Shown piece after piece: positions 58,651 through 64,000 of a DNA stretch of 64,000 nt. Source of the DNA: Desulfovibrionaceae bacterium (GTDB taxonomy: Bacteria; Desulfobacterota; Desulfovibrionia; Desulfovibrionales; Desulfovibrionaceae); assembly GCA_028689675.1 (NCBI GenBank), contig JAQVCS010000015.1, positions 1 through 64,000 of the forward strand, given 5' to 3'. The notes under the pieces are model-generated. The model worked only from the letters and a program-made list of their open reading frames with translations, was not told the DNA's origin and did not search any database. A program made the position numbers and the translations under genes. Position 1 is the stretch's first letter. Each line of letters opens with the position of its first letter.

Positions 58651-58725
58651 GCGGGAATAACTCAGCGGTAGAGTGTTAGCTTCCCAAGCTGAAGGTCGCG
58701 GGTTCAAATCCCGTTTCCCGCTCCA
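58651..58725 (+). tRNA. tRNA-Gly (CCC)
   Basis: Acceptor arms GCGGGAA / TTCCCGC, anticodon CCC in the loop CTTCCCAAG, T arm as in the Gly-GCC genes, encoded CCA. It is the last tRNA before the prophage. Confidence 0.96.
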
Positions 58726-58733
58726 AAAAAATC

Positions 58734-59003: not shown

Positions 59004-59033
59004 ACAAAAAAGGCAGGTTTTTCCCCTGCCTTT
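59004..59033 (-). terminator. Terminator after mom
   Basis: AAAGGCAGG (59009-59017) and CCTGCCTTT (59025-59033); T-run on the minus strand. 20 bp past the stop of the Mom-like gene. Confidence 0.85.
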
Positions 59034-59053: not shown

Positions 59054-59779
59054 TTATCCTTGTTTCGGGTATGGCTGGATGGGCATTCGCAGGCGTTTTT
59101 TCCAGTCTGTTTTTATAAAGTAGATATAGCGGAACTGCCGTAGGATTTGCTTTTCGGCGCGGGCTATTTCTGCTCGTAGTTTTATGCCACGCTGTCCTCC
59201 TTTCTTGTGTGCATCGAGCAGCATTTTATGGTACACTTCCCCATCCAGCACATAGAATGCCGTTTTATGGCTGCCAATATAGAGGAAATTCGCCGCCTGA
59301 TAGACGACTCCAAGACCGCCACAGCGTTCATCGGCAAAAGATTGTATCCACGCCACCGTGGGGCAGACTCTTTTTATATATTTAATGGCATAGCTTATGG
59401 CACGACTTTCGCTATTTCTCGGTGCGTCATCGGACAGCCACATACGATTCAGCTCCATATACTGCCCCTGCGCCGTATCCGCTACAACTTTTCCAGCACG
59501 AGCGGGGTTCAGGGCATAGCCAAATTGTAAGACACCTTCAAAAGCCCCTTCTCGGAATACCCCAAGATGCAGATAGCTATTGTTGACGACACGCTTTGAA
59601 TAATGATGAGCAATAATAATGCTTCGGGCTACCTTGCACGGTATTTGTGCCACATAGAAATGACGGCATCCAAAGCCCTGCGCCCCAGACGCGCCCATAA
59701 TATATTCCGCATGAATACCACTAGGCGGCAGATAATCACTAAGAGTTGGTGGATGGTATGCTTTGCGCTGGGCAGGCAT
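59054..59779 (-). CDS. mom: Mom-like phage DNA modification protein
   Basis: 241 residues, similar in length to phage Mu Mom. The GNAT-like fold contains IIAHHYSKRVVNNSYLHLGV (H58, H59, Y60), FEGVLQFGYALNP, ELNRMWLSDDAPRNSESRAIS, and SFADERCGGLGVVYQAANFL. Mom converts adenine to N6-carbamoylmethyladenine (momylation), which protects phage DNA from many restriction enzymes. The start lies 41 bp inside the end of the Com-like gene and has no clear ribosome site, as expected if translation depends on Com. It is the last gene of the phage, as in Mu. No GATC sites were seen just upstream, so the Dam control known from Mu is probably absent. Confidence 0.82.
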   Translation of the reverse strand: MPAQRKAYHPPTLSDYLPPSGIHAEYIMGASGAQGFGCRHFYVAQIPCKVARSIIIAHHYSKRVVNNSYLHLGVFREGAFEGVLQFGYALNPARAGKVVADTAQGQYMELNRMWLSDDAPRNSESRAISYAIKYIKRVCPTVAWIQSFADERCGGLGVVYQAANFLYIGSHKTAFYVLDGEVYHKMLLDAHKKGGQRGIKLRAEIARAEKQILRQFRYIYFIKTDWKKRLRMPIQPYPKQG

Positions 59780-59942
59780 GGTAATCCATGGCTGGTGCTC
59801 TCTGGCTCGCGATGTCGGGGCTTGCAGTCCTCACTATTGTGTATGCCCCACAACGGGGACACTTAAATTCTATGTGCCGTGCTTCGCCCTTGGCGAGCAG
59901 CCTGTGGCAATGTGTGCAACGAATTTCGGTCAGATTCTCCAT
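59739..59942 (-). CDS. com: Com-like zinc-ribbon translational activator of mom
   Basis: 67 residues from ATG at 59942; the frame extends upstream without a good start. Two CX2C pairs (C9-C12 in RCTHCHRLL, C28-C31 in KCPRCG) form the zinc ribbon of the Com family, which Mu uses to melt the mom mRNA and expose its ribosome site. The end of the gene overlaps the mom start by 41 bp, the same arrangement as in Mu. The upstream 190 bp contains a perfect hairpin. Confidence 0.8.
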   Translation of the reverse strand: MENLTEIRCTHCHRLLAKGEARHIEFKCPRCGAYTIVRTASPDIASQRAPAMDYHACPAQSIPSTNS

Positions 59943-60129
59943 GATGTTAAATATTCCTTCTTGCGCCCCGCGCCCCCGCCTGATACATAATTTGCGCTCA
60001 AACCAGAGCAAACACAGGCGGAAACTTTGCATAGCAAACCCTTGCTATGTGAGGCCGTGTGCGGCGCTTTCTCACCGCATCGGTGGGGGCGGTGCTAACG
60101 CCCCTGCCACTGTCAAAAATCACTTCTCG
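59943..60129 (-). promoter_or_regulatory. Leader of the com-mom transcript
   Basis: Contains a perfect 8-bp stem CATAGCAA (60030-60037) / TTGCTATG (60042-60049) and a second stem GGGGCG / CGCCCC (60086-60104) that may end the tail transcript. A weak promoter with TATGTA around 59987 is possible on the minus strand. Could be the control region of com-mom. Confidence 0.4.
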
Positions 60130-61474: not shown

Positions 61475-64000
61475 TTACAGTACGGCTTGCAGGCTTTGTT
61501 CCTGCCCGTCTTGGGTTACCACCACAGGGCTTTCGCCCACATACACATCAAAAATAACGCCGCTGCCTATATCAAGGCGGTAATCCACATCAACCACCAT
61601 GCCCTCTTGGGCATTAGCACCTTCTGTCACAGAAAAGCGGTAAATATAGCCCACACTCAAATTACGCACTACAAAGGCTGGGTTGCTGGTGCTGCCCGCA
61701 AAAGTCCAGCCAGTATCTACGCCTAAGCGCCGCCAAAACACGCGCCAGCCCAAAGCATAGCCGCGCCATGAAAGCGATATGACTTTCTTCTGCAAAGCGT
61801 CTTCCTGCACATCCAGCACAGCAGCGGTTAAGCCTGCCACGCTTGGCCACGAGCCAGCGCCATCAGTGCTTGGCTGCCCACCCTCATCGGCATAGACGGC
61901 TTCGTCATATTCCAAGCCAGTGAGCTGCACTTTAAGGTCGCTGGTTTGTGTGAGGCTTTGCACCCTGTACCAACGCACAGTGCGCTTGACCACGCCCACA
62001 GCGGCAGAAACGTCCTTGGCGGGCACGGCAAGCAGGGGCGCGGCAAGGTTCAGGCTGTCTGTTTCTGTTGCCTTTTCCACAGCAAGCAAGGGCATACGCT
62101 CCACCAGCGGCTCTTTGGTGCGCACGTCCATCTGGTCGCTGTGCCGCAGCACCAGCTCATAGCCCACGCCTGCTTCTAAAAGCACGGGGCGGTTAAGGCG
62201 TACCGAGGTTTTTGTTGCTTCCAGCACCAGCCCGCTTTGCGTGTTCAGCAGCATATCTGCCGCAAGCTGGAATACCTTTCCGCGCCGCAAATGCGGCCCC
62301 AGTGCCTGCCAGGCTAATGTAAGCTGCACAATGCGCGTCAAATATTGGTTGCAGCGGTTCAGGTATTTGCCCGCATTGATGGCTGTTGCCTCATCCCTGC
62401 ACGGGTATAAAGTAATAGAGCTCACCACGGGCGGGCGGTCTTTATCTCTAAAGAAGGTGTCACCAGGCGCAAAAACGCTCGTTTTACCACGCTTGGCATC
62501 AAAATAGGTTATTTCAAAGCCGTCTGCTCTATCTTCAAGCGCTGGGTAGGTAATGCCCAGCGAGCCTTTTTCAATATCGGCAGAGGTAGCCAAAAAAGCA
62601 GCGTCTGGGTACTCTTGCGGGCGGTCACTCACGCACACAAGCTGTGTGCCCATTCTGTCCACAGTGCAGCGCCCAAGCTGTCCCCAATAGCCAGCAAAGG
62701 TTTCAAAAGTCATGGCGGCATCAATGTACAGCCCGCCTTGTATCTTCTTTTTGTCACACCACTCGGCGGCAAGGGCAAAACTTTCAGCATCAATATTTTT
62801 CGTCTGCTCACCCACGCCGTAGCGATTTGCCAAGGCCATTTCCATAATTGCCCAAGCAGGGTTCGACAAAGGGCGCGCTGCCCATGTGCCGCTGGCATCG
62901 GGCAGCATGGCTGTCATGCGCTTAACACTGCACTTGATGGTGGGCGCACCACCAGAAAGGCTTTCGGTGGGCAAGGCCTTGATAGCCAGCAGAGCACAAT
63001 GGGGCAGCCTAAAATCATCTTCAATAATTTCATGGTAATACTCCCACGTTACGTCAGACATATAGCGCGTGCCTGTGGGTGGGCTGCCCTGCATACGCCC
63101 GCGCACTTCATAACTGCGCTCACCATTACGGCTTACACGCGCCTCATCATATTTCATTACAGCAGAGCGCTTGGCATCGCTTAGGCTCAAGGTCATGAGC
63201 GGCTGCCACGCGTTTTCCCCCTCCAGCCTGTATTCAAATTCTGCCGTCACAGTAATGGGGTCTAAGCCACCGCCGTCATTGGCATAATAGAGCCCCTGTA
63301 AAGCATTGATGCCCAAACCTATGCGGCTAATCCCCGTGCCAGCAAAAAGCATAGTGTGCCAGCCCTCATCATCATCTTTTTTTGCCTTGAGCTTCACGCC
63401 CACGCCATATTCTTGGGGTAGGTCAGCAAATTCTGGTATCACTTCTTGGTCTGCTGTGCCTAGACGCGTGGTAAGCTCTATGCCCGCATAATTGCGCACA
63501 GGGTTGTCATTCACCAGCACATCATAAATTTCATCAACCTGCCCTTCGGCAACAAGATAGAGGGCATTGTAATACTGCTTTTCCCCGTCCGTCTTGATAT
63601 AGGAGCACAGGCGCACAGGCGTGATTTTTTGGCAATCGCCTTGCACAATGGGGATAACGCCGCCTTGCTCGGAAGGGTTGCTTTGTGCAGACCAGCGGTA
63701 GGTGGGGCTTTCGTCCAGCGCATTGCTGCCCAAGCCAAAACCAGAGCCAAGCGAAGGCTTAACGGGCGGAAAGGCAACGCTCATCAGCAGCGAGCCACCA
63801 ATCATCACGGCAGCACCAGCCAAATAGCCAGCCGTTGAGCCTAAGCCAAGCGAGGTCATGCCCGCAACGGCAATGCCACCCGTACCGCCCACATACCACG
63901 TTGCCACGGCAGCCAGTATAACAAGTGCCACTGAAGCGATAATGTGCAAAGGGTTCGAGCCTCCGCCCCCACCACCGCCCCCGCCAGCGGGCACAATGCG
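61475..64000 (-). CDS. Phage tail-tip protein J / TipJ-like (partial, N-terminus beyond window)
   Basis: At least 841 codons, open to the right edge; the GTG at 63994 is not supported as a start, so the N-terminal part is probably cut off. After a Gly-rich segment it has two hydrophobic stretches (HIIASVALVILAAVATWYV and AVMIGGSLLMSVAFPPVKPS), then the soluble J-type central part (YRWSAQSNPSEQGGVIPIVQ, NPAWAIMEMALANRYGVG, ITYFDAKRG), and fibronectin-III-like modules near the C-terminus. It resembles lambda gpJ, the host-specificity tip of siphophage tails. It indicates a siphovirus-type prophage, possibly a transposable one of the B3/D3112 kind, since com-mom lies at its end. Confidence 0.85.
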   Translation of the reverse strand, partial: RIVPAGGGGGGGGGSNPLHIIASVALVILAAVATWYVGGTGGIAVAGMTSLGLGSTAGYLAGAAVMIGGSLLMSVAFPPVKPSLGSGFGLGSNALDESPTYRWSAQSNPSEQGGVIPIVQGDCQKITPVRLCSYIKTDGEKQYYNALYLVAEGQVDEIYDVLVNDNPVRNYAGIELTTRLGTADQEVIPEFADLPQEYGVGVKLKAKKDDDEGWHTMLFAGTGISRIGLGINALQGLYYANDGGGLDPITVTAEFEYRLEGENAWQPLMTLSLSDAKRSAVMKYDEARVSRNGERSYEVRGRMQGSPPTGTRYMSDVTWEYYHEIIEDDFRLPHCALLAIKALPTESLSGGAPTIKCSVKRMTAMLPDASGTWAARPLSNPAWAIMEMALANRYGVGEQTKNIDAESFALAAEWCDKKKIQGGLYIDAAMTFETFAGYWGQLGRCTVDRMGTQLVCVSDRPQEYPDAAFLATSADIEKGSLGITYPALEDRADGFEITYFDAKRGKTSVFAPGDTFFRDKDRPPVVSSITLYPCRDEATAINAGKYLNRCNQYLTRIVQLTLAWQALGPHLRRGKVFQLAADMLLNTQSGLVLEATKTSVRLNRPVLLEAGVGYELVLRHSDQMDVRTKEPLVERMPLLAVEKATETDSLNLAAPLLAVPAKDVSAAVGVVKRTVRWYRVQSLTQTSDLKVQLTGLEYDEAVYADEGGQPSTDGAGSWPSVAGLTAAVLDVQEDALQKKVISLSWRGYALGWRVFWRRLGVDTGWTFAGSTSNPAFVVRNLSVGYIYRFSVTEGANAQEGMVVDVDYRLDIGSGVIFDVYVGESPVVVTQDGQEQSLQAVL

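Follow-up and report, generated by a model that had tools for sequence, protein, structure and literature searches.

How does Com, a small zinc-ribbon protein, open the start of the mom gene, and is its means of doing so shared beyond bacteriophage Mu? In Mu, Com recognises the motif CC(N)2-3GAG in a hairpin loop, as defined by SELEX and EMSA, and the hairpin concerned sits just upstream of another that hides the mom start; how Com opens that start is unsettled (PMC6483171). The question is raised anew by a 64,000-nt stretch of Desulfovibrionaceae DNA (hereafter the window), in which com (59739..59942, minus strand, 67 aa) and mom (59054..59779, minus strand, 241 aa) overlap by 41 bp (59739..59779), exactly as the original prediction for this DNA had it. 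We consider it very likely that the two genes form a prophage-borne cassette in which Com, bound to a hairpin within its own gene, exposes the mom start, and in which Mom modifies the progeny DNA.

As to the proteins themselves, the profile searches proposed with the original prediction were run and returned significant matches for both in Pfam and PHROG. Com, a translational regulator with two Cys pairs (CX2C...CX2C), matches Zn_ribbon_Com (PF10122; 2e-16, 59.6 bits against a cut-off of 22.9) and PHROG 6417, likewise a translational regulator (9e-15), and its four zinc-binding Cys residues are invariant in the alignment; the 3' third of its gene is predicted to encode the RNA target as well. 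Mom, by homology a DNA-modification enzyme, matches PF25680 (1.3e-83, 280 bits against a cut-off of 27.1), PHROG 1384 (Mom-like) and, at about 57% identity, the solved Mu Mom (PDB 8bv8, named methylcarbamoylase; 4.6e-72); no Mom model was matched in NCBIfam. An alignment of 88 Mom homologues has 54 columns conserved in at least 95% of the sequences, and the window's Mom keeps every one of them. These comparisons confirm the predicted zinc-ribbon and Mom-like genes as a genuine and, to judge from their sequences, apparently intact Com-Mom pair, and family identity leads us to infer that this Mom would modify DNA and make the phage DNA resistant to restriction. The claim that mom lacks a visible ribosome site held only in part: there is no strong site, but a weak GGA lies 5 nt upstream of the start (...GCCATGGATTACC-ATG). 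Just 3' of mom stands a bidirectional intrinsic terminator (59009..59033, minus strand), found on the plus strand; on the minus strand its palindrome is followed by TTTTTTG.

The pair constitutes the last phage genes of a prophage integrated in tRNA-Gly(ccc). Its position at the prophage end, which had been foreseen, is borne out by attL (58678..58730), a 53-bp repeat of the 3' end of the tRNA gene; an exact copy on contig C11 (33236-33288) adjoins a tyrosine integrase, and genes for RecT and exonuclease VIII lie deeper inside. The siphovirus-type tail genes that had also been foreseen upstream are there, as a lambda-J-type tail tip gene (61475..63994, minus strand, in part; PHROG 31, 4e-91), which runs on past 64000 and is a 950-aa ORF in a longer contig stretch, and other tail genes precede com. 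J-type tail genes, att repeat and tyrosine integrase, the marks of a prophage that were looked for, are thus all present. Capsid and terminase genes were not located on contig C4, because C4 ends at 67466 in tape-measure-like sequence; C4 and C11 presumably belong to one prophage. The nearest relatives of its Mom are found in Desulfovibrionaceae (D. piger, 74% identical), and the phage collection searched contained no close DNA relative.

By protein content, the Com and Mom of the window are a new member of an already known pair. The original prediction had set the lambda-J-type surroundings apart from Mu's contractile tail. Com-mom outside Mu's contractile group is not new: the pair already exists in JD024 and PAN70, whose full-length Mom relatives are about 59% identical, and 209 phage records encode a relative of Mom. 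Com, for its part, has been annotated or can be recognised beside methylase genes of B3, UMP151, KS5, AP3, Mana, Bise and TJ1. The com gene of JD024, at 5.8-6.05 kb, upstream of mom and overlapping it, is unannotated in the public record. JD024 (Casadabanvirus) belongs to the D3112 group, with its non-contractile tails; D3112-group phages are transposable and, unlike them, the window phage integrates at tRNA-Gly. What, then, does the locus add? The new part of this wider system appears to be an RNA architecture shared by its members, together with a leader upstream of com.

The family comparison covered about 110 loci, 45 distinct com-mom loci among them. In 44 of these 45, the DNA coding the C-terminal tail of Com contains a hairpin NNGC[C-NN(N)-GA]GCNN, mostly at a constant spacing from the final Cys (at L010 the copy that qualifies is the upstream one, H1, rather than H2), and the loop of H2 agrees with the known motif of Com. 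Many non-Mu loci carry the second, upstream copy H1, which has four pairs and a five-base loop, and the same two hairpins also precede Dam-type, N4/N6 and C5 DNA methylases. Across 26 loci with mom, Dam-type, N4/N6 and C5 effectors, the window excluded, H1 and H2 are 97.6% paired, as against at most 48.5% for slid controls; double changes occur at eight of the eight pairs, and double-changed cells number 32 against 8 upon shuffling, counts that include related sequences and are not independent events. The compensatory changes are diverse, comprising GC, CG, AU and UA pairs, and no described RNA in Rfam matched H1 or H2 even at permissive thresholds. Throughout the family, the H2 place is thus taken by a covarying hairpin that carries the motif known for Com from experiment. 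Some loci depart from the common pattern: four alphaproteobacterial ones (L018, L019, L069 and L101) encode a variant Com with CxC instead of CX2C at the first two Cys, and in L141 and L142 a Com-like gene with a hairpin GCCG[CATGA]CGGC is followed by one for a small, hydrophobic protein, which does not look like an enzyme of DNA modification and, by eye only, is possibly conjugation-pilus-like.

How might a bound Com free the start? Over 32 loci, the mean cost of opening the ribosome site is 12.7 kcal/mol, and in 22 of them the cost exceeds that of the locus's own shuffles (p<=0.05). In 14 of the 32 (e.g. L011, L017, L081 and L107), H2 formation significantly lowers this cost, because the stem that blocks the site there is made of bases belonging to H2; the extreme case is L167, where AGGC[CGAGA]GCCT competes with GAGAGCCTC...GAGGCTCTC-ATG. 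For such competing loci the folding model gives a simple physical reading, namely that Com would hold H2 and the start would be freed. Mu-type loci and the window have, next to H2, a separate start hairpin, and there the action of Com must be of another kind, as has been proposed for Mu.

In the window, the predicted Com-binding hairpin H2 (59795..59808, minus strand) reads GAGC[CAGAGA]GCAC; it has CC-AGA-GAG and a single A.A mismatch in its stem, and its position is, by alignment, homologous to H2 in 44 of 45 com-mom loci. A covariance model from which the window was withheld still ranks this place above all others in the 64 kb (31.4 bits, E 3.3e-10), a score in which Com homology and RNA conservation are partly entangled. 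Among the 45 com-mom loci, the window is the sole one without a perfect H2 stem. The H1 position (59818..59830, minus strand), placed by alignment and a leave-one-out model, is degenerate, as GGAC[UGCAA]GCCC contains an A.C mismatch and has lost the GA of the loop. The folding of the overlap suggested with the original prediction put the mom AUG in the 3' arm of a predicted translation-inhibition hairpin, CAUGG-AUUA-CCAUG (59773..59793, minus strand; MFE fold), but did not find it unusually stable: its opening cost of 8.1 kcal/mol is not above shuffles (p 0.21). This start hairpin does not compete with H2. The motif and the hairpin over the start together support the earlier view that Com-dependent translation is the likely control of mom, and the window's Com would accordingly be expected to bind this RNA and raise mom translation. 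The RNA of the window is a good member of the Com-hairpin family, but how strongly it regulates is uncertain.

A further structure, overlooked by the original prediction along with the architecture shared with com-methylase loci, is a 187-nt non-coding leader between the last tail gene and com (59943..60129, minus strand; model match 60053-60112), containing hairpins A and B. In 22 loci, A and B are 90.4% paired (slid controls at most 53.5%) with 48 double-changed cells against 12.6 upon shuffling, and in many loci an outer stem, P1, closes both, with matching changes; six distinct P1 stems pair with themselves at about 6.5 of 7 positions and at 5.2 when cross-paired, a modest covariation support for P1. 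In the predicted fold of the window, the 3' strand of P1 pairs instead with a CAGGCGG copy located downstream, and leaders end in a conserved UA(G/U)CAGG(C) to which this 3' strand of the outer stem could base-pair; a two-state fold is a possible, if speculative, reading of this alternative pairing. Taken whole, the window leader is not exceptional in RNAfold against shuffles (z -1.3), and the support for a leader RNA is comparative: a profile built without the window finds its leader at 2.6e-5 (nhmmer), as the only match in the window. Rfam yielded no match to the leader, even at permissive thresholds.

Where else does this leader occur? Model R2 gave 16 matches in 59 related genomes, several of them in the training set; outside it, five lie directly upstream of D12 methylase genes, com being absent at four of these (L160, L164, L168 and L169), and one upstream of mom, while two weak matches (L171 and L172) stand beside no modification gene. 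For L159, L166 and L170 the effector was named from a sequence motif or from similarity instead of Pfam, and that of L161 (ParB-like plus methyltransferase) is below Pfam cut-offs; R1 matches at other places in relatives, where weak (E above about 1e-7), were mostly put down to chance. Among another 27 com loci, drawn from viral contigs, 16 have the leader where it would be expected, and the gene behind it, if it could be classified, is mom or of N4/N6 or C5 type. R2 does not reach Pseudomonas-type leaders or the Com-less leaders of sphingomonads. In the latter, mom genes without com (L068, L074, L077, L100, L102, L106 and L111) have a conserved multi-hairpin leader of their own upstream, for example CCGGGCTGCAACCCGG followed by ACCGACGAGCCTTAGCACCTCGTC, which neither Rfam nor R2 matches. 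On balance, the leader probably represents a class of phage regulatory RNA that has not been described before, built as a multi-hairpin junction and reserved for DNA-modification genes (mom, D12, N4/N6 and C5, with or without com), which, with the portable Com hairpin, would make up a common control module before chemically unrelated enzymes.

Set against its relatives, the cassette shares with that of Mu both protein families, the com-mom overlap (50 nt in Mu from a GUG start, 41 in the window from an AUG start), a Com motif just upstream and a separate start hairpin; it differs in the siphovirus-type tail, the tRNA integration, the mismatched H2 stem and the 187-nt structured leader, in place of which Mu has a GATC-containing upstream region. 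JD024 and PAN70 have com overlapping mom and both H1 and H2, as here, JD024 with a stronger ribosome site (GAGG). The D. piger prophage with the 74% identical Mom (L087) has the com overlap, the same leader type and a tRNA nearby on the same side, but its H2 stem is perfect and its ribosome site reads GGAGG. The com-methyltransferase cassettes of B3, UMP151, KS5, AP3, Mana and Desulfovibrionaceae prophages resemble the window in a Com that has the same H1/H2 hairpins and overlaps or abuts the downstream modification gene, although their effector is a Dam-type D12, N4/N6 or C5 DNA methylase rather than Mom.

The missing GATC sites deserve a separate comment. The 230 nt upstream of com indeed contain none, and hence no GATC cluster upstream of the operon of the kind on which Mu's Dam/OxyR switch depends, from which a control unlike Mu's had been deduced. 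The argument for a different transcriptional switch was rejected after a window-wide test: since GATC is depleted across the whole 64 kb (19 against 87 expected, 0.29 of the Markov expectation), its local absence carries little information. Better evidence for a control upstream of com unlike that of Mu comes from the leader, which is a different one; a consensus promoter scan gave nothing above chance. Across window positions 1-64000, the palindromes GATC (0.29 of expected) and CCGG (0.15) are strongly avoided and GGCC (0.55) less so, suggesting restriction pressure in the host lineage.

Could the hairpins merely mirror amino-acid conservation in the C-terminal tail of Com? That tail does have recurrent motifs (SP..GHRAS, ERPRAS and EHPTEKHCGK), but when the tails were recoded synonymously 1000 times, the hairpin appeared in a mean of 3.6 and a maximum of 10 loci, against the 44 of 45 observed; compensatory changes touch all eight pairs, and in L134 and L167 the hairpin is located after the com stop codon. 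Amino-acid conservation as the sole cause is already contradicted by recoding and covariation, and we regard this explanation as very improbable. It is less far-fetched, though still unlikely, that the cassette is decaying here, its proteins intact and its RNA target starting to lose dependence on Com. The lost H1 loop, the one mismatch in each stem and the weak ribosome site would fit such a course; both ORFs, however, are open, the strongly conserved Mom residues are kept without exception, and two com-methylase loci, L131 and L208, likewise have A.A at the third pair of the stem, a mismatch that may thus be a tolerated variant.

A somewhat stronger competitor, if a doubtful one, holds that the leader RNA is the main control, transcriptional or translational, and Com a secondary layer. 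In its favour, most of the non-Mu cassettes examined have the conserved leader ahead of com, and it immediately precedes dam genes that have no com, whereas Mu works without a leader, and the action of Com is established there (PMC6483171).

We therefore favour exposure of the mom start by Com, which might proceed as follows. Upon induction, late transcripts that come from the tail operon or start at a promoter close by would run through the structured leader into com and mom. With the mom start in a hairpin and its ribosome site weak, little Mom would be made at first; Com, translated first, would bind the hairpin that lies inside the 3' end of com, immediately ahead of the mom start, and expose that start, and Mom would then modify adenines of the progeny DNA, giving resistance to host restriction. 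What does this mean for the wider family? The comparison provides a testable answer to the question, standing since Mu, of how Com opens the mom start. The sequence for the dispensable tail of Com also encodes its hairpin, which many phages build from the very bases that otherwise block the start, one RNA switch being reused before several unrelated families of DNA-modification enzymes, and a second, undescribed RNA, the leader, travels with DNA-modification genes. Both RNAs may serve as search models for phage anti-restriction genes.
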